This document shows, one piece after another, positions 5,392 through 41,918 of a stretch of DNA of 42,528 bases. The stretch lies in contig NZ_CAMFHB010000051.1 in NCBI RefSeq assembly GCF_945952055.1, forward strand, positions 1-42,528. Reading direction: 5' to 3'. How positions within the stretch are numbered: the stretch's first letter is position 1; the number at the start of each line of letters is the position of its first letter. The notes beneath the pieces are model-generated. The model had not been told where the DNA came from. It ran no database searches and worked only from the letters and a program-made list of their open reading frames with translations. The translations under genes and the position numbers were made by a program. Source of the DNA: an uncultured Alsobacter sp. (lineage in GTDB: Bacteria; Pseudomonadota; Alphaproteobacteria; Rhizobiales; Beijerinckiaceae).

Positions 5392-6326
5392 CGCAGCTTC
5401 GGGTTCAATGCGTCGCGCAGCCAGTCGCCGCACAGGTTCAGCGCGAGCACGAAGACGGCGAGCGTGGCGCCGGGGAAGGCGACGATCCACCACTCGCCGG
5501 AGAACAGGAAGTCGTTGCCGATGCGGATGAGCGTGCCGAGCGACGGCTGCGTCGCCGGCAGGCCCACGCCGAGAAAGGACAGCGTCGCCTCGGTGATGAC
5601 GGCCAGGGCGATGTTGATGGTCAGGATCACCAGGATCGGTCCGGTGACGTTCGGCAGCACGTGGCGCACGAGGATGGCGGGGGCCGACAGGCCCATCAGG
5701 CGGGCGGCCTGGACGTAGTCCTTGTTCTTCTCGACCATCGTCGAGCCCCGCACGGTACGGGCGTACTGCACCCAGAAGGACAGGCCGATCGACACGATCA
5801 GCACGGCCATGGCGGTCGTCTCGCGCTGGCTGTCCTGGACCATGGCGTGGACGACCCCGTCGACGAGCAGCGCGATCAGGATGGCGGGGAAGGTCAGCTG
5901 GACGTCGGCGATCCGCATGATCACCGCGTCGATCCGCCCGCCGGCGAACCCGGCGACGAGCCCCAGGCCGATCCCGACCACTGCCGCCAGCGCGACGCCG
6001 CTGAGCCCGACGATCAGCGACACGCGCATGCCGTAGAGGATGGCCGACCAGAGGTCGCGGCCCTGGTTGTCGGTGCCGAGCAGGAAGCGCGGGTCGCCGC
6101 CCTCCACCCAGCGGGGCGGCGTCAGGGAATCGATGAGGCTCACGGCGCCGGGGTCGAAGGGATCGGACGGGGCGATCCATGGCGCCAGGGCCGCCGCGCC
6201 GGCCATCGCCAGCACCACGCACACCGAGACGAGCGCCATCGGGGTGGCGAGGAGGCTCGCCAGGACCTCGTTGTCCCTGGCCCGGGCGGACCAGCCGTCG
6301 CGTCGCTGCGTGTCGGGCGTGGACAT
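5388..6326 (-). CDS. Peptide ABC transporter permease (DppC type)
   Basis: This inner-membrane permease has 312 residues. A charged N-terminus is followed by one membrane helix, then a periplasmic segment containing LGTDNQGRDLWSAILYGMRVSL, the DppC/OppC N-terminal signature region, and five more helices. The EAA coupling loop lies around AARLMGLSAPAILVRHVLPN. I favour the ATG at 6326 because a GGTGG lies 8 bp upstream of it. A GTG at 6338, only 3 bp after the previous stop, would add four residues. The stop overlaps the start of the downstream ATPase gene. It partners with the DppB-type permease encoded just upstream. Confidence 0.93.
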   Translation of the reverse strand: MSTPDTQRRDGWSARARDNEVLASLLATPMALVSVCVVLAMAGAAALAPWIAPSDPFDPGAVSLIDSLTPPRWVEGGDPRFLLGTDNQGRDLWSAILYGMRVSLIVGLSGVALAAVVGIGLGLVAGFAGGRIDAVIMRIADVQLTFPAILIALLVDGVVHAMVQDSQRETTAMAVLIVSIGLSFWVQYARTVRGSTMVEKNKDYVQAARLMGLSAPAILVRHVLPNVTGPILVILTINIALAVITEATLSFLGVGLPATQPSLGTLIRIGNDFLFSGEWWIVAFPGATLAVFVLALNLCGDWLRDALNPKLR

Positions 6327-6341
6327 CGGTTGCGCCACCGC

Positions 6342-7319
6342 TCAGGCCGGCCGCGCTGCGATGCGCAGGCGCGGATCGACGGCTGCGTAGAGGAGGTCGA
6401 CGACCAGGTTGATGCCCACGAAGATGGTCGCGGTCAGCATGAGGTAGGCGGCCATGACCGGAATGTCGACGTTCTGGACCGCGCCGAGGAACAGCAGTCC
6501 CATGCCCGGCCACTGGAAGACGTATTCGGTGATCAGCGCGAAGGCGATCAGGGATCCCAGCTGCAGGCCGGTGACGGTGATGAGCGGGACGAGCGTGTTC
6601 TTCAGCGCGTGCCCGAAATGGATCGTGCGGTTGCGCAGGCCCCGTGCCCGCGCGAAGCGGATGTAGTCCGTGCGCAGCACCTCGAGCATCTCCGCCCGGA
6701 CGAGGCGGGTGATGAGCGTCATCTGGAAAAGGGCGAGGGTGACGGCCGGCAGGATGAGGGCCTTCAGGCCGGAGGCCGTCAGCAGCCCCGTGCTCCAGCC
6801 AGCCAGCATCACCACGTCGCCCCGGCCATAGGACGGCAGCCAGCCGAGCTGCACCGAGAAGAGGTAGCGCAGCAGGATGGCGATGAGGAAGGTGGGCAGG
6901 GAGATCCCGACCAGCGAGACGGCCATGAAAAGGGAGGCGAGAAGGCTGTCGCGCCGCAAGGCCGTGAACACGCCCATCGGGATGCCCACCAGCAGCGCGA
7001 GCACGGCCGCGACCCCCGCCAGCTCCAGGGTTGCCGGCATCCGCTCGCCGATGAGGCCCCTCACCGGCTGGCGGAACTGGTAGGACATGCCGAAATCGAA
7101 CTGCGCGGCCCGCACGAGATAGGCCGCGAACTGGACCGGCACGGGTCGGTCGAGGCCGAGGTCCTGGCGCACGCGTTCGCGCTGCTCGCGCGGGGTGTCG
7201 ATGGAGACGATCTGGTTCACCGGATCGCCCACGAAGCGGAACATCGTGAAGGCGATCAGCCCGACGGCGATCATCACGATCACCGACTGGAACAGCCTGC
7301 GGATCACGAAGGCGATCAT
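6342..7319 (-). CDS. Peptide ABC transporter permease (DppB type)
   Basis: This permease has 325 residues and about six membrane helices. The N-terminal MIAFVIRRLFQSVIVMIAVG helix and the DLGLDRPVPVQFAAYL periplasmic element are characteristic of DppB/OppB/GsiC permeases. The EAA loop is RFARARGLRNRTIHFGHALKN. The ATG at 7319 lies 73 bp downstream of the binding-protein stop. The gene is second in the operon and forms the transmembrane heterodimer with the DppC-type subunit. Confidence 0.94.
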   Translation of the reverse strand: MIAFVIRRLFQSVIVMIAVGLIAFTMFRFVGDPVNQIVSIDTPREQRERVRQDLGLDRPVPVQFAAYLVRAAQFDFGMSYQFRQPVRGLIGERMPATLELAGVAAVLALLVGIPMGVFTALRRDSLLASLFMAVSLVGISLPTFLIAILLRYLFSVQLGWLPSYGRGDVVMLAGWSTGLLTASGLKALILPAVTLALFQMTLITRLVRAEMLEVLRTDYIRFARARGLRNRTIHFGHALKNTLVPLITVTGLQLGSLIAFALITEYVFQWPGMGLLFLGAVQNVDIPVMAAYLMLTATIFVGINLVVDLLYAAVDPRLRIAARPA

Positions 7320-34566: not shown

Positions 34567-35163
34567 TCAGGCCGCCTCTTCCTCGACTTCGTCGATGTCG
34601 GAGGCCGATTCCGCATCGGCGTCGGCGTCGGCCGGCTTCGCCCGCTTCGGGGACTTGGCGAGCTGCGCCTCGATGAGCTTCAGGGCCTCGCCCTCGTGCA
34701 GCTTGTTCACGGCCGCGACCTCGCGCGCCATGCGGTCGAGGGCCGCCTCGTAGAGCTGACGCTCGGAATAGGACTGCTCGGGCTGGGCGTCGGAGCGATG
34801 CAGATCGCGCACGACTTCAGCGATGGCGATCAGGTCGCCGGAATTGATCTTCGCCTCGTATTCCTGGGCGCGGCGCGACCACATGGTGCGCTTGACGCGG
34901 GCGCGGCCGGTGATGGTTTCGAGCGCCTTGGTGACGAGCGCGTTCTCGGCGAGCTTGCGCATGCCCACGGCCGCGGCCTTCGCGGTCGGGACGCGCAGCG
35001 TCATCTTGTCCTTCTCGAACGAGATCACGAACAGCTCGAGCTTGAAGCCAGCGACCTCCTGCTCCTCGATCGCCGTGATCTGCCCCACGCCGTGGGCCGG
35101 ATAAACGACATACTCGCCGGTCCGATAACCCTGGCGGTGGGAATTCTTCTTGGCGTTCGTCAT
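34567..35163 (-). CDS. carD: CarD family RNA polymerase-binding transcription factor
   Basis: The protein has 198 residues. The N-terminal CarD_CdnL/TRCF RNA-polymerase-interaction domain (about 10-75) has GEYVVYPAHGVGQITAIEEQ. The helical C-terminal domain (about 80-170) includes RTMWSRRAQEYEAKINSGD, with the conserved tryptophan that stabilises the open complex, and ARAVKR-type basic residues. An acidic low-complexity tail ends the protein. CarD binds the beta subunit and stabilises open promoter complexes, notably at rRNA promoters. The ATG at 35163 has GGAGAA upstream. A good promoter at 35434-35462 implies a leader of about 265 nt. A terminator follows at 34515-34538. Confidence 0.96.
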   Translation of the reverse strand: MTNAKKNSHRQGYRTGEYVVYPAHGVGQITAIEEQEVAGFKLELFVISFEKDKMTLRVPTAKAAAVGMRKLAENALVTKALETITGRARVKRTMWSRRAQEYEAKINSGDLIAIAEVVRDLHRSDAQPEQSYSERQLYEAALDRMAREVAAVNKLHEGEALKLIEAQLAKSPKRAKPADADADAESASDIDEVEEEAA

Positions 35164-35545
35164 GATCCAGTTCTTCTCCCGTGCCGGCGCGCAGGCCGGC
35201 TCATCACGCAAGGCCGGGTCCTCCCCGGCACGACAACACCACGGCCCGGACCGATCGATACAGTCCACGCCGCGGAGATTCACCGAGCCGAATGACGAAA
35301 CCGCAAGCCTGCTATCCCAATGACCGGGCGACCCCGTCGCCGTTTCGGGTACTCCCGCCACGGCATCAGGCCGCAGCCAAGGGGAGAGGTGGGATGGTTC
35401 AGGATCTGCCGGGCGCGATCGACCACAACAGAGATACTACCTCAAAACGGGCACTAAATCAAAGGCTTTCGTCCGCGCGGGCCATCTGACCCGCACGGCA
35501 ACCCTTACGTTAACTCCAGCTTGACACAGCCGGAGGCCGGATCGT
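35164..35545. other. carD leader and fdxA-carD intergenic region
   Basis: The 382 bp between carD and fdxA hold the probable carD promoter (listed separately) and about 265 nt of transcribed leader with no convincing open frame. An in-frame extension of carD to a GTG at 35361 exists, but it would add a Pro/Cys-rich segment unlike CarD proteins. I see no clear terminator for fdxA, so read-through into carD remains possible. Confidence 0.6.
35434..35462 (-). promoter_or_regulatory. Sigma-70-like promoter of carD
   Basis: On the minus strand TTGATT (35462-35457) and TAGTAT (35439-35434) are spaced by exactly 17 bp in an AT-richer patch. Transcription would start near 35427, about 265 nt before the carD ATG. 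Confidence 0.6.
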
Positions 35546-35884
35546 TCAGTCGCCCTCACCCGGGTTCGGGGAGAAATACTTCTCGAGCTTGCCCTCTTCA
35601 CCGTCGTGCTCCTTGGCGTCGCCGGGGGCGTCACGCTTGACGGTGATGTTGGGCCAGCCCTTGGCGTACTCGGCATTGAGCTTCAGCCACTTGTCGAGAC
35701 CCGGCTCGGTGTCGGGCTTGATCGCCTCGGCCGGGCATTCGGGTTCGCAGACGCCGCAATCGATGCATTCGTCGGGGTGGATGACGAGCATGTTCTCGCC
35801 CTCGTAGAAGCAGTCCACCGGACACACTTCAACGCAGTCCATGTACTTGCACTTGATGCAGTTCTCGACGACGACATACGTCAT
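35546..35884 (-). CDS. fdxA: Seven-iron ferredoxin FdxA
   Basis: The ferredoxin has 112 residues. Cysteines match the Azotobacter FdI pattern: Cys9, Cys17 and Cys50 for the 3Fe-4S cluster; Cys21, Cys40, Cys43 and Cys46 for the 4Fe-4S cluster. Cys12 and Cys25 are extra. The C-terminal half (about 55-112) is the usual FdxA extension with a conserved WP motif and an acidic end. It is a low-potential soluble electron carrier; its partner is not apparent here. The order helicase-S4 protein-fdxA-carD on one strand is common in Hyphomicrobiales. Confidence 0.97.
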
Positions 35885-36311: not shown

Positions 36312-39300
36312 TCAGTCCTTGCCCTGCTTGGCTTCCAGCTCCGCCTTCAGCGCCAACAGCTTGGCGAAGGGCGAATTCGGGTCGGGTGCCCGGTCGCGCG
36401 ACGGGCGCTCGCTGCTCCACGACCGATCCTGCCGGTCTCCACGGTCGCGATCGGGACGCGGACCTCCCGGCCTGCCACCCTGCGGGCGCGGACCGCGCCC
36501 CCCGTCGGGACGGTCGTCGCGGCGCGGCGGGCGCTGGTCGCGGCGCTCTCCGCGGTCTTGGCGGCCCTCGCCCTGCGGACGTGCCGGCCTGTCCTGGCGT
36601 CCCTGGCCGCCGGAGCGGTCCTGTCCACCGGGACGGTCCTGGCGATCGGGCCGCGGAGCCCGCTCGGCGGTCGCCTCGGTCGAGGCACCCTGCGCCGCTG
36701 CCGGACGCTCGCCACCGGCGGGACGATCCTGACGCGGTCCACGGTCGCGGCGCTGGCCGTCGCGCGGCCCACGCTCGCGGCCCTCGGCAGGACCGGTTCC
36801 CTCGCCACGGCGGGGCTGCGGACGCCGGTTGTTCTGGTGCCGCCCACCCTGGTGGCGGTGCTGCCGCCACACCTCGATCAGCGGCACTTCGGCCGGGGCT
36901 TCTTCCGCGGGGGCATCCGTGGCCGGGGCCTCGGCAGACGCCTCGGTCGCGGCCGGCTGCTCCGTCACGCTCTCCTGAGCTGCGCTGTCCTGCGCCACGC
37001 TTTCAGGGGCTGCGACGTCTTGCGCCACCACGTCTTGGGCCACGACGTCTTGGGCCGGCGCTTCGGCCGCCGGGGTCGCGTCGGCGGCAGGCGTTTCCGT
37101 GGCCGCCTCGGCCGGCGGCGTGCCGTCCTCGGTTGCCATGGCGCCCTCGGACGCGGCCTCGGGCTGCGCCTCGCCGGCGGCCGGGGTCTCGGCCGCGGCA
37201 GGTGCGGCGGGGGCGGTCGGGGCCGCCTTCAGCAGCGGAACGGTGATCGCGGGGCCGGCACGCCGGTCCATCACGTAGCCCAGCGAGCGCAGGATGGACG
37301 CGAAATCCTCGCCGGCGCAGCCGCAGAGCGAGGTCATCGACGTCGTCACCACGAAGCCCTCGCCGTCGGCTGTTCCGGGCGGCGGTTCGCCCGGCGTGGC
37401 GCCGGGGCGGTAGTGGATCGCGGGCCGGATCAGGTCGGCCAGGCGCTCCAGGATGTCGACGCGCACGGCGCGCTCGCCGCAGACGCGGAAGCCCGCCGCG
37501 CGGTAGAGGCCCTTGTGGACCTCCTTGTCCACCGGGATCGAGGTCCGGCCGGACGCGGCGAGATGCAGGATGTCGCTGAGGCCATGCACCTCGGGGCCGC
37601 CGTGCTTCAGGGCCCAGAGCTGCGCGGCCAGCGACCGCGGTGCCGGCTTGAGGAGGGCTGGCACGGTGAGGTGGTAGGCGCCGAAGCGCACGCCGAGATT
37701 GCGCAGCGCGGCGCGGGCCTCCTGGTCGAGCCCCTTCACCTCGTCGGCGACGCGGGAGCGTTCCAGCACGCCCAGCGCCTCGGCGATCTGGAAGCCGAGC
37801 CCCCGGGCGATGCCGGACAGCGATGCCGGATCCTCGAGCTTGAGCAGGCCGCCCAGCAGACGCTCGACATGCGCCTTGATCCAGGCGTCGAGCCGGCCCT
37901 GGACCTGCTCGCGTGCGCCGCCGGTCAGCTGCTCGTCGGCCAGCAGCCGAAGCCGTGGTTCGAGAAGCTTGTCGCCGGCCACGAGCCGGGCCACCGCCTC
38001 GCCCTGCCAGCGCAGCGCGCCGTCGTTGGACAGCACGAAGGCATCGTCCCCGGCGCCGGCGAGCCGCGCCGCGCGCGTCTCGATCTCGCCTGCGAGAGCC
38101 TTCATTGCGGCATTGCGCAGGGCCTTGGCATCCGGACCGCCGGCCTGCGGATCGGGCGCGAACTGGAAGCCCTGCAGGCGGCCGATGGGATGACCTTCGA
38201 CAAGCACATCGCCCGCCGCCGTGATTTCCGCCTCGAGCATCGCGTTTTCTCTCAGTCGACGCAGCAGCACGCTGGTGCGCCGATCCACGAACCGTTGCGT
38301 CAGGCGCTCGTGCAGAGCATCCGACAGCCTGTCCTCTACCTGACGGGTGACGCCCTGCCAATGCTCAGGATCGCGGAGCCAGTCGGGCCGGTTGGCCACG
38401 AAGGTCCAGGTGCGAACCTGGGCTATGCGGTTTGAGAGGGTGTCGATGTCTCCGTCCGTCCTGTCGATCTCGGCGACCTGGCGGGCGAACCAGTCGTTTG
38501 CGACCCGTCCCTGGCGCATCAGCTGCCGGAACAGGGTGGCCACGAGGTCGGCATGGGCCTGGGGCGCCACGCGGCGATAGTCGGGCACCTGGCAGACTTC
38601 CCACAGTCTTTCCACCGTCGCCGGGGTCGAGGCGAATCCGGCCAGCTCGGGATCGCGTGCCGCGATCTCCAGGGCGACGAGATCCTCGCCGGCAATCGCC
38701 CGCGTCAGCCCGGGCTCGGTCGGCAGCTGTTCCAGGGAGGTGACGAGACGGGCCACCGATCCGAAGTCGAGGTCGACGTTGCGCCACTGCAGCACGTTCA
38801 TCGCATCGAAGTTGTGATCCTCGAGGCGCTCCACCAGTTCCGGCTCGAACGGCTCGCAACGTCCCGTCGTCCCGAACGTCCCGTCGCGCAGGTGGCGGCC
38901 GGCGCGGCCGGCGATCTGGCCGAACTCGCCGGGCGTGAGCCGGCGGTGCATGGCGCCGTCGAACTTGCGATCCGCGGCGAAGGCGACGTGATCGAGGTCC
39001 AGGTTCAGGCCCATGCCGATGGCGTCGGTCGCAATCAGGAAGTCCACGTCGCCAGACTGGTACAGGGCGACCTGGGCGTTGCGGGTGCGGGGCGAGAGCG
39101 CGCCCAGCACCACGGCGGCCCCGCCGCGCTGGCGGCGGATCACCTCGGCGATGGCGTAGACCTCGTCGGCGGAGAAGGCGACGATGGCCGAGCGCCGCGG
39201 CAGGCGCGTGATCTTCTTCTCGCCCGCGAAGCTCAGCGTGGAGAGGCGGGGGCGCGAGACGATCGCCACGCCGGGCAGCAGCTGCTCGATGAGCGGGCGC

Positions 39301-39710
39301 ATGGTGGCGGCGCCGATCAGCAGGGTCTCGGCCCGGCCGCGCATGTTGAGCAGCCGGTCCGTGAAGACGTGGCCCCGGTCCCTGTCGGCCGCGAGCTGGA
39401 TCTCGTCGATGGCGACGAACGGCACCTGGATGTCGCGCGGCATCGCCTCGACGGTCGCCACCCAGAACTTCGCATCCGGCGGCTTGATCTTCTCCTCGCC
39501 GGTGACGAGCGCCACGGCGGACGGACCCACGCGATCGACGACCCGCTGGTAGACCTCGCGGGCCAGGAGCCGGAGGGGCAGCCCGATCATCCCGGAGCCG
39601 TGCCCGATCATCCGCTCGATGGCGAGGTGTGTCTTGCCGGTGTTGGTCGGACCCAGGACTGCCGTGACGCCGCGGGATCTGATCGAGGAAGGAAGCGAGC
39701 GAGGAAACAT
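36312..39710 (-). CDS. SUV3-like ATP-dependent RNA helicase with long disordered tail
   Basis: The protein has 1132 residues. The helicase core begins at the N-terminus: Walker A is GPTNTGKTH (about residues 18-26), Walker B is the SUV3-type DEIQ in VAIDEIQLAADRDRGHVFTD, and motif VI is GQIAGRAGRHL. This is the mitochondrial SUV3/SUPV3L1 arrangement, an RNA helicase of degradosome type. From about residue 830 the protein becomes an Ala/Glu-rich acidic region to about 960. An Arg/Gly/Asp/Gln-rich region follows to about 1105 and ends in a distinctive PNSPFAKLLALKAELEAKQG. The tail probably binds RNA or partners. The ATG at 39710 begins MFPRSLPSSI. S4 and helicase genes are adjacent, pointing to RNA metabolism. 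Confidence 0.9.
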   Translation of the reverse strand: MFPRSLPSSIRSRGVTAVLGPTNTGKTHLAIERMIGHGSGMIGLPLRLLAREVYQRVVDRVGPSAVALVTGEEKIKPPDAKFWVATVEAMPRDIQVPFVAIDEIQLAADRDRGHVFTDRLLNMRGRAETLLIGAATMRPLIEQLLPGVAIVSRPRLSTLSFAGEKKITRLPRRSAIVAFSADEVYAIAEVIRRQRGGAAVVLGALSPRTRNAQVALYQSGDVDFLIATDAIGMGLNLDLDHVAFAADRKFDGAMHRRLTPGEFGQIAGRAGRHLRDGTFGTTGRCEPFEPELVERLEDHNFDAMNVLQWRNVDLDFGSVARLVTSLEQLPTEPGLTRAIAGEDLVALEIAARDPELAGFASTPATVERLWEVCQVPDYRRVAPQAHADLVATLFRQLMRQGRVANDWFARQVAEIDRTDGDIDTLSNRIAQVRTWTFVANRPDWLRDPEHWQGVTRQVEDRLSDALHERLTQRFVDRRTSVLLRRLRENAMLEAEITAAGDVLVEGHPIGRLQGFQFAPDPQAGGPDAKALRNAAMKALAGEIETRAARLAGAGDDAFVLSNDGALRWQGEAVARLVAGDKLLEPRLRLLADEQLTGGAREQVQGRLDAWIKAHVERLLGGLLKLEDPASLSGIARGLGFQIAEALGVLERSRVADEVKGLDQEARAALRNLGVRFGAYHLTVPALLKPAPRSLAAQLWALKHGGPEVHGLSDILHLAASGRTSIPVDKEVHKGLYRAAGFRVCGERAVRVDILERLADLIRPAIHYRPGATPGEPPPGTADGEGFVVTTSMTSLCGCAGEDFASILRSLGYVMDRRAGPAITVPLLKAAPTAPAAPAAAETPAAGEAQPEAASEGAMATEDGTPPAEAATETPAADATPAAEAPAQDVVAQDVVAQDVAAPESVAQDSAAQESVTEQPAATEASAEAPATDAPAEEAPAEVPLIEVWRQHRHQGGRHQNNRRPQPRRGEGTGPAEGRERGPRDGQRRDRGPRQDRPAGGERPAAAQGASTEATAERAPRPDRQDRPGGQDRSGGQGRQDRPARPQGEGRQDRGERRDQRPPRRDDRPDGGRGPRPQGGRPGGPRPDRDRGDRQDRSWSSERPSRDRAPDPNSPFAKLLALKAELEAKQGKD
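37014..37056. repeat. Tandem 15-bp repeat within the helicase tail
   Basis: Nearly three copies of a 15-bp unit (GACGTCTTGNGCCAC) lie in frame in the helicase gene and encode a repeated five-residue VAQDV element in the acidic linker. Degenerate copies precede it. The repeat is coding and suggests a linker that varies in length between strains. Confidence 0.7.
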
Positions 39711-39825
39711 CGACACCTGACGTCCGGCCGTGCGCCGCCCCCGGGGGACGGCTGTCACGCACCCCTGTGTACCACGTCGGCACGCCGGGGCGGCACCCCG
39801 TTTACGGACAGAACGGTGTGGGAAC

Positions 39826-40038
39826 GAATCGCGCCCGAATCGCTGACTCGGGCAGAGTCTTCGTTCGTTCTCCACAAGATCTGGGCCTGCGGCTCGTCGG
39901 TGCCACCAGAGTCTTGGGGGTGCTTTTGCATAGGGGGACGATTCGCGGTGATTCGTCGTTTACCGCCGATGACTCGTAACGACTCACGAGGCGCGCGTGA
40001 AAACTGTAACCGTCAGCGATACAACTCTGCCAAGACTC
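39826..40038. promoter_or_regulatory. Cluster of ten GANTC (CcrM) sites
   Basis: GANTC starts at 39826, 39837, 39845, 39855, 39909, 39940, 39950, 39971, 39981 and 40034. The steps are 11, 8, 10, 54, 31, 10, 21, 10 and 53 bp, mostly near whole multiples of a helical turn. GANTC is the target of the alphaproteobacterial cell-cycle methyltransferase CcrM and occurs about once in 256 bp by chance. TTCTCCACA at 39868-39876 is one mismatch from the E. coli DnaA box. The cluster lies 116-328 bp upstream of the helicase start. Confidence 0.75.
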
Positions 40039-40450
40039 GGCCCGTCTTAAGCTTTGCCGCAGGCGGGCGTGCGGAAGTGGCACAGTGGGCGGCCGATCAT
40101 TGACGGGTGGTAAACACGAGCGCGCAATTCGCAGTGGTGCCGTTCATGAATGGTGCGGGGCGGGAACAGGCCGTGCACGAATCACTGTCGGCGGCGCCGG
40201 GGCCTTGGCCCGCCTCGGGCCGTCGCCGGCGCGAGCGGTTCGGCGGGGGCGCCGGAGTGGTTCGCGCGTTCACACTCTCGTCCCGGCACGACGCATTCCG
40301 CGCGACGGCGGCGGGACGGATCTTGCCGAAACGTGAAGGACGTCCGCCCCGGGATCGCTTCGGGCGTTCACGTCTGGCGCCAAAGGTGAACAGGACCGGC
40401 ACGAATCGGGAGATCGGCGATTCGCGGGTCCGGGGCATGTCCCAAAACGC

Positions 40451-40481
40451 AAAAGGCCCGGGGCGCAGCGCGCCCCGGGCC
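40451..40481 (-). terminator. Rho-independent terminator after lpdA
   Basis: On the minus strand GGCCCGGGGCGC (40481-40470), loop GCT and GCGCCCCGGGCC (40466-40455) form a 12-bp hairpin, followed by TTTTGCGTTTT. It begins about 40 bp after the lpdA stop. Confidence 0.9.
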
Positions 40482-40520
40482 TTCGTTGGGTCCCGTCGTG
40501 AGAAGGTCGGGTCCGCCGCC

Positions 40521-41918
40521 TCAGATGTGAATGGCGCGCTTGTCGACCGCCAGAGCGGCTTCCTTGACGGCTTCGCTCATCGTGGGATGGGCGTGGCAGG
40601 TGCGGGCCAGGTCCTCCGACGAGCCGCCGAACTCCATGAGCACGGCGGCCTCGTGGATCATCTCGCCCGCGCCCGCGGCGACGATGTGGACGCCGAGGAC
40701 GCGATCGGTGTTGGCGTCGGCCAGCACCTTCACGAACCCGTCCGAGTGGCGCATGGCGCGCGCCCGGCCATTGGCCGTGAAGGGGAACTTGCCGACGGTG
40801 TAGGCGATGCCGGCCGCCTTGAGCTCTTCCTCGGTCTTACCGACGGTGGCGATCTCCGGCATCGTGTAGACCACGCCCGGGATCACGTCGTAGTTCACGT
40901 GGCCCGCCTTGCCGGCCAGGATCTCGGCGACCGCGATGCCCTCGTCCTCGGCCTTGTGGGCCAGCATCGGGCCGCGCACCACGTCGCCAATGGCGAAGAT
41001 GCCGGGCACGTTGGTCTGGAAGTGGTTGTCGATGACGACGCGTCCGCGCTCCATCGTGACGCCCACCGTGTCGAGCCCGAGGCCCTCGGTGTAGGGACGA
41101 CGGCCGATGGCGACGAGCACCACGTCGGCGTCGAGCGTCTTGGCTTCGCCGCCGGCCGCCGGCTCCACGGTGACCTTTGCGCCGCCCTTGCCGGTCTTCA
41201 CGCCCGTGACCTTGGAGCCCAAGTGGAAGGCGAAGCCCTGCTTCTGCAGCATGCGCTGGAACTGCTTGGCGACCTCGTCGTCCATGCCGGGCAGGATGCG
41301 GTCGAGATACTCGACCACGGTGACCTCCGCGCCCAGGCGCCGCCACACGGAGCCGAGCTCGAGGCCGATCACGCCGGCGCCCACCACGACGAGCTTGCCC
41401 GGGACCTTCTCGAGCGCGATCGCGCCGGTGGACGAGACCACCACCTTCTCGTCGATCGTGACGCCCGGCAGCGGGGCGACGTCCGAACCGGTGGCGATGA
41501 CGATCGCCTTCGTCTCCAGCGTCTGCGTCGTGCCGTCCTCGGCCGTGACCTTCACCTGGCCGGGGGCCACGATGGTGCCCGTGCCCAGGAAGGCCTCGAC
41601 CTTGTTCTTCTTGAGGAGGAAGCCGACGCCGTTCACGTTCGCGGCGACGGTGTCGTCCTTGTGCTTCATCATGCCCTTGATGTCGAGCTTGGGCGCGGGC
41701 ACCGAGATGCCCAGCGCCTCGAAGCCGTGTCCGGCTTCGTCGAACATCTCGGAGGCGTGCAGCAGGGCCTTGGAGGGAATGCAGCCGACGTTCAGGCAGG
41801 TGCCGCCGTGCGTCTTGCGCTTCTCGACGACGGCCGTCTTGAGGCCGAGCTGGGCCGCGCGGATGGCGCAGACATAGCCACCCGGTCCGGTGCCGATGAC
41901 GATGAGGTCGTAGGACAT
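40521..41918 (-). CDS. lpdA: Dihydrolipoyl dehydrogenase (E3)
   Basis: The flavoprotein has 465 residues. The FAD-binding GTGPGG is at residues 9-14 and the redox disulphide Cys41/Cys46 is in [13 protein letters not shown]. The NAD-binding motif is [12 protein letters not shown]. The second FAD element is [20 protein letters not shown], and the C-terminal catalytic His-Glu pair is in HAHPTMSEA. It reoxidises lipoyl groups of the 2-oxoglutarate and related dehydrogenase complexes. It lies 116 bp downstream of the E2 gene on the same strand, with a REP pair in between, and ends at a strong terminator. Confidence 0.97.

Follow-up and report, generated by a model that had tools for sequence, protein, structure and literature searches.

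A conserved 84-bp GANTC element of Alphaproteobacteria and its possible role as a GcrA docking array upstream of a Suv3-like helicase gene in Alsobacter

A dense cluster of GANTC methylation sites in the genome of an uncultured Alsobacter sp. begins with one copy of a deeply conserved non-coding element, which occupies the first 84 bp of the cluster. This element is ancient non-coding DNA common to many alphaproteobacteria. We propose that the cluster is an array of docking sites for GcrA, a cell-cycle regulator acting together with sigma70 RNA polymerase, and that docking depends on CcrM methylation; we give this reading a probability of about 0.6. The window referred to below is the whole stretch of DNA that was analysed (42,528 bp).

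GANTC density and layout of the element

A sequence-only reading of the window had pointed to ten GANTC sites within 213 bp in a gene-free block, and both observations hold. The sites start at 39826, 39837, 39845, 39855, 39909, 39940, 39950, 39971, 39981 and 40034, and three further GANTC (40179, 40403 and 40419) follow past the cluster. Across the window GANTC is depleted, with 61 sites in 42,528 bp against 204 expected from shuffles, and the second-densest separate 213-bp stretch, counted from each GANTC, holds four. A sliding-window density check in the same genome, made on 40 stretches of 20 kb (800,000 of 6,623,063 bases), gave a maximum of 5 GANTC per 213 bp compared to the 10 of the cluster; this sample contained 815 GANTC in total, or 0.22 per 213 bp. 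Its top cluster (L223 14344, on contig 15 of the window's own genome, G000) has five sites in 16-17 bp steps without helical phase. Homology places the helicase start near 39710 and the end of lpd at 40521, both on the minus strand, and the intergenic block containing the cluster measures 821 bp; mechanical open reading frames do run across the cluster block. On the 3' side of lpd lies a strong intrinsic terminator (40452-40484, minus strand) with a 15-pair stem and a T-rich tail. The features of the region are as follows, where A3 is the alignment of the window with 24 relatives in helicase direction and positions of GANTC sites are relative to the core.

36312..39710, minus strand: Suv3-like DEXQ helicase gene, directly downstream, start codon by homology
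39802..39885, minus strand: main copy of the conserved element (84 bp), oriented to the helicase, from model hits and alignments A3-A5
39811..39825, minus strand: GTTC-N7-GTTC, an SOS-box-like direct repeat with an 11-bp step, exact in 25/25 A3 rows and 39/78 A5 rows
39826..39830, minus strand: GANTC at +11, in 81/157 loci
39837..39841, minus strand: core GATTC within CGATTCGG, invariant in A3 and A4
39845..39849, minus strand: GANTC at -8, in 63/157 loci
39855..39859, minus strand: GANTC at -18, in 93/157 loci
39867..39870, minus strand: GAAC, invariant in A3 (25 rows) and A4 (50 rows)
39874..39882, minus strand: AGATCTTGT box, from alignment A4, class-wide about CnATnTTGT
39909..40038, no strand: six further phased GANTC (39909, 39940, 39950, 39971, 39981 and 40034), from site count and phase test

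Alignment with the helicase-upstream regions of relatives, a comparison that the sequence-only reading had proposed, reveals that the 84-bp element of the cluster is conserved in the window and 24 relatives. It follows the formula GAAC-RAA...GA...GTCAGYGATTCGG...TTCGTTC-N7-GTTC. In order, its parts are CnATnTTGT, GAAC-RAA, GA, GTCAGYGATTCGGnC and TTCGTTC-N7-GTTC, often then GTnAA, with near-fixed internal spacing. In A3 the GAAC, the GATTC and the GTTC-N7-GTTC are all invariant; in A4 invariant bases are limited to GAAC, the core GATTC and one further G. A single GANTC is all that 25 of the 78 A5 rows carry, and among the GANTC sites the core GATTC alone is invariant. In Caulobacterales the AGATCTTGT box occupies the place of a sigma70-like -10 box. 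A profile of 166 copies has right-hand half-sites (GTC, GGnC, GTTC, GTTC) at 11-column steps, similar to direct-repeat operators.

The enrichment of GANTC extends beyond the core. It was analysed in 157 homologous loci, a set from which nine redundant loci were dropped (L001, L002, L053, L058 and L203-L207) and in which 10 of the 167 remaining loci lacked the anchor pattern; three pairs of loci from the same contigs (L007/L178, L068/L099 and L081/L174) count twice. All 157 have a GANTC at core position 0, as the anchor demands. Beyond the core, GANTC density is 0.0083 per bp upstream (5.5x) and 0.0058 per bp downstream (3.9x), relative to a background of 0.0015 per bp further from the element that includes coding sequence. 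For such bacteria, a more than 1.5-fold enrichment of intergenic GANTC is reported in the available text of PMC3973325.

The sites had also been described as lying mostly on one face of the helix. In the window this is clearly so: the best Rayleigh R was 0.886 at 10.4 bp (periods of 10.0-11.0 tried), which 0 of 5,000 random placements matched, and the six GANTC outside the conserved core reach R 0.979 on their own, with 1 of 5,000 random placements as good. The sequence-only reading had asked for phasing to be kept in close relatives; among three congeners, G001 and G002 are phased (10 and 34 of 5,000 random placements as good) and G003 is not significantly so (521 of 5,000). The locus of G081 also has ten GANTC in 213 bp, yet it is unphased (4,200 of 5,000). 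Over the 157 loci, upstream GANTC are in phase with the core at 10.4-10.6 bp with R about 0.22 and a nominal p of about 1e-6, a value that is optimistic because related and a few duplicate loci were kept unthinned; other periods likewise reach R 0.12 or so. Loci L003-L031 taken by themselves give R 0.33 for the upstream sites. Given these mixed outcomes for congeners, G081 and the 157 loci, helical phasing is strong in the window and a mere tendency elsewhere.

Occurrence and copies of the element

A blastn search with the 821-bp intergenic block against 99 genomes (own genome included) matched 33, mostly in the same short piece. Two models were used for wider searches; both match the main copy, and the window is a training row of both. 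R1, a sequence-only model of the 25 A3 rows, matches 40 of 385 class genomes at E<=0.001, and 37 of these lie outside its training set. The wider R2, with 78 rows, has matches at E<=0.001 in 69 of 99 relatives, 60 of which reach E<1e-6, and at E<=0.01 in 49 of the 385 class genomes, 40 of which reach E<=3e-8; many of the genomes matched are R2 training rows, and strict filters lose weak matches. A scan of named genomes gave at least 120 matching stretches, and among the matches listed are Caulobacter, Phenylobacterium, Brevundimonas, Bradyrhizobium, Nitrobacter, Bosea, Stappia, Roseibium and others. L131 and L148 lie outside the class, and these two as well as L121 look like chance matches; all three were kept out of the profile and of A5, as was L116 (Phreatobacter), which was judged doubtful. 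L116 later scored E 8.6e-13, its exclusion thus being mistaken, and it counts among the 157 loci only if it passed the anchor pattern. A plasmid or phage element was considered and rejected: a Caulobacter copy taken together with its flanks (201 bp) had no blastn match at E<=1e-5 in either collection. No description of the element as a conserved, tandem, class-wide feature was found in the open-licence literature consulted, which includes the available text of PMC3667746, PMC7987155, PMC5172544 and PMC3973325 and likewise PMC4287350, PMC5988900 and PMC1839093.

Copies often come in tandem. Scanned with the profile, 39 loci (L007 and L178 are one contig) have a second hit at E<=1 on the same strand and no more than 600 bp away; there are 40 such hits in all, and 27 of them are spaced at 214-229 bp. 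At L142 and L170 the likeness between tandem copies is mainly the element itself; at L155 the flanks are alike too. In the window, two decayed copies lie beyond the cluster.

40142..40187, minus strand: degenerate second copy, right half, a weak profile hit (E 1.1) and repeat D1
40388..40407, minus strand: degenerate third copy, right half, 224 bp past the second, repeat D1 only

The congener G002 (L250, 1654-2499) carries five partial copies with E from 5.8e-7 to 0.19, spread over about 850 bp upstream of the helicase, and this series suggests an expanding and decaying array. Elsewhere, the secondary loci L252 (G077), L256 (G085) and L257 (G035) hold two or three tandem copies each. One MAG (L155, positions 6230-6538, and L158) has a second, tandem-duplicated element beside a DUF1003 gene, with longer repeated flanks, in addition to its helicase-linked copy.

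The GcrA and CcrM connection

The sequence-only reading had guessed at a GcrA- or CcrM-dependent element, and this guess appears well supported by comparison, through the kept YGATTCG core, the co-occurrence of GcrA and CcrM-like proteins and the presumed identity with a known GcrA target. The extended GcrA motif is given as YGAKTCG in the available text of PMC7987155. The window core CGATTCG fits it, likewise 24 of the 25 A3 rows. YGAKTCG is present in 72 of the 78 A5 rows and the pattern missed five others; those A5 rows that come from the named-genome scan had been selected on the motif. A GcrA match was found in all 40 class genomes with a strong element against 245 of 385 overall, in raw counts that ignore kinship; 205 of the 245 GcrA-bearing genomes are without a strong element hit, and two (G151 and G387) of the nine genomes with weak R2 matches have no GcrA match. 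A RAMA/CcrM-like protein, similar in size to CcrM, was found in 40 of 41 genomes tested, the miss being G298; the 41 comprise 38 of the 40 strong-element genomes (all except G004 and G028) plus G002, G012 and G077. The own genome of the window has a GcrA match at 1.1e-52 and one RAMA protein (395 aa, 2.0e-16), assigned to CcrM by domain and size. We infer that the GANTC sites of the cluster are methylated and that GcrA binds there.

Of seven Caulobacter loci, six carry three GANTC in their copy of the element and one (L180) carries two; the copy adjoins ogt in four of the seven. We take tipF to be CC0710 in C. crescentus. The available text of PMC3667746 equates tipF with CCNA_00747, and the ogt genes of this species are CC0659 and CC0689 (PMC1839093, Table 5). 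The resulting locus-tag offset, if it holds, would put CC0659 at about CCNA_00696. In C. crescentus, the most GcrA ChIP-seq reads were found at CCNA_00697, a locus with three GAnTC, which was also the best-bound EMSA probe and where binding of GcrA needs CcrM (PMC3667746, available text). Gene order and site count suggest that CCNA_00697 is probably the C. crescentus copy of the element. The locus shares with the window the GcrA/CcrM system and, as the Caulobacter copies do, it would lie beside ogt; however, the cluster in the window has ten GANTC instead of three and a helicase downstream. In the available text of PMC3667746, CCNA_00697 is described without mention of conservation across the class, of tandem copies or helical phasing, or of any connection to the Suv3-like helicase. 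According to the same source, a CCNA_00697 reporter kept full activity after mutation of GAnTC to GCnTC and lost 31% on GcrA depletion. Binding at this locus is therefore not needed for transcription. The GcrA-CcrM activated promoters of mipZ and podJ are crippled by mutation of their GANTC sites (PMC3667746, available text). These promoters resemble the element in having methylatable GANTC near a promoter; they differ from it in serving one gene each, while the element is a gene-independent unit of about 84 bp that frequently occurs in tandem and combines an invariant GAAC with conserved GTTC blocks.

Competing explanations and a possible role

An obvious alternative is that the element is an ordinary GcrA/CcrM-activated promoter of the Suv3-like helicase, kept since the helicase is cell-cycle regulated. 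We regard this as possible, though unlikely. Of the 24 aligned relatives, 23 have the helicase as the next gene downstream of the element, as do 28 of 30 class loci (three of these 30 belong to the window or to genomes of the set of 24), and it is found within 900 bp of the element in 72 of 120 named loci, among the matches listed, many of which are cut pieces; at L009, L066 and L070 the piece examined has no helicase. The placement upstream of an RNA helicase, as the sequence-only reading had it, is valid for the window and most loci examined, but it fails as the defining association. At five Caulobacter-type loci (four Caulobacter and one MAG) the element has the end of a DUF3617 gene on one side and a converging ogt on the other, with the helicase 3.4 kb (L127) or 4.7 kb (L180) further on or absent from the piece examined (L102, L107 and L188). 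Secondary copies on six pieces of 5-6 kb (L252-L257) and the one at L155 have no helicase in the piece examined; those of L252, L253 and L257 lie between converging genes, and L202, a second copy in G093, lies past the end of a glutathione S-transferase gene. The constant adjacency expected of a helicase promoter is therefore missing at the Caulobacter-type loci and at L252-L257, and a position between converging DUF3617 and ogt genes in five loci argues against a plain helicase promoter. Promoter activity at the presumed C. crescentus site, moreover, does not depend on its GANTC sites. The element is not tied to one gene. A promoter with the 5' part of an unannotated non-coding RNA is another idea, which we consider improbable. 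In its favour, some loci are convergent intergenic regions, copies occur in tandem, and 46 of 157 loci have a sigma70-like pair before GAAC in its stricter form (TTGnnn, 15-18 bases, TACnAT), compared to 6 of 3,140 control windows. The pair occurs chiefly in Caulobacterales, where the GANTC sites would consequently fall just downstream of the start; in the window itself a standard promoter scan finds no promoter. Against an RNA speaks that RNAalifold found no conserved fold (0 pairs in 50 sequences), that single-sequence folds are mildly stable at best (z -1.0 to -2.5 for six) and that terminator-like signals follow in 2 of 154 loci compared to 2 to 4 of 154 controls. Rfam gave no match at gathering score on 39000-41000; its one match there, at E 0.64, is no better than chance. 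Among 14 Caulobacterales loci, a TTGTG-to-GTTC block is conserved with nothing comparable beyond, and the downstream gene varies. A structured RNA is not supported by the Rfam, RNAalifold and terminator results.

The GTTC-N7-GTTC repeat, which we take to be the alphaproteobacterial SOS box, suggests instead a LexA-regulated promoter in which the GANTC sites are secondary. The box is exact in the window and in all 25 A3 rows. However, the exact form is found in only 39 of the 78 class-wide rows, in Caulobacterales the box is degenerate (GTTT-N7-GTTC) although GAAC and GATTCGG stay, and LexA leaves the central GTCAGYGATTCGG unexplained. The SOS box is thus identical in sequence to a part of the window copy and accounts for that part only; LexA as the sole reading was dropped because the box is not kept class-wide, and LexA control in any form seems rather improbable to us. 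A presumptive NrdR-like reading of the CnATnTTGT box was also considered. A role as a chromosomal replication origin, which the sequence-only reading had called weakly supported, is considered here together with that of an origin-like sequestration site. In E. coli, oriC contains a dense, helically phased GATC cluster bound by SeqA, and the cluster in the window resembles it in being a dense and phased group of adenine-methylation sites; it differs in the methylase and in being without origin signs, and a SeqA-like sequestration protein acting on it would be conjectural. The element does lie within 550 kb of a parS-like site in 13 of 14 relatives that have both on one contig, but this distance spreads from 46 to 1,358 kb. 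GC skew was computed for the relative G012 (0.5-1.28 Mb, every other 20 kb) and has no lasting switch at the element: four of five tiles before 700 kb are negative, the sign switches next to hemE and parS (about 704-706 kb), some 408 kb away from the element, and between this point and 1,280 kb 14 of 15 tiles have positive skew. The lone negative tile (1,140-1,160 kb, -0.008) comes just after the element, and the tiles beyond are positive again. A DnaA-box-like TTCTCCACA is indeed present in the window at 39868-39876; it coincides in part with conserved element bases without being preserved as a DnaA box, and TTWTNCACA occurs near only 5 of 157 homologous loci compared to 1 of 143 control stretches. 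The element lies in the origin half of the chromosome but does not look like an origin in its behaviour, and we consider an origin role extremely improbable.

The docking array that we favour would have the 84-bp element at its helicase-proximal end, extended by phased GANTC and by decayed tandem copies. GcrA, alone or on RNA polymerase at the promoter-like box, would bind the phased methylated sites on one face of the DNA. Passage of the replication fork would leave the GANTC sites hemimethylated until CcrM acts, and this hemimethylation would change the occupancy by GcrA and polymerase once per cycle. The nearest output in this genome would be the Suv3-like helicase, and candidate end uses of the occupancy change are the helicase, a short transcript or the GcrA pool. 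In general, the element may hold or gate GcrA and polymerase rather than switch on one gene; such holding is favoured over plain activation by the CCNA_00697 reporter, which proved insensitive, and by a placement that is not bound to any single gene. More tentatively, and with doubt on our side, the element could have been a dedicated, gene-independent site since early alphaproteobacterial evolution, at which GcrA, with RNA polymerase, is held in a methylation-dependent manner and fork passage releases or re-sets the pool. Such a holding site would be the GcrA counterpart of datA-type titration loci. In E. coli, datA and DARS are short non-coding stretches of the chromosome that work through the binding of a cell-cycle regulator. 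The likeness is an analogy only, as both are short non-coding sites for such a regulator; DnaA boxes are rare near the element, and its regulator would be GcrA. If our reading is right, one of the strongest sites of a master cell-cycle regulator would be an ancient non-coding element and not the promoter of one gene. The sequence model of the element can also be used to search other genomes for such arrays.

Downstream of the helicase, the window encodes a CarD-like regulator (34567-35361, minus strand) and a ferredoxin with DUF3470 (35546-35884, minus strand), and this gene order is familiar from other alphaproteobacteria.
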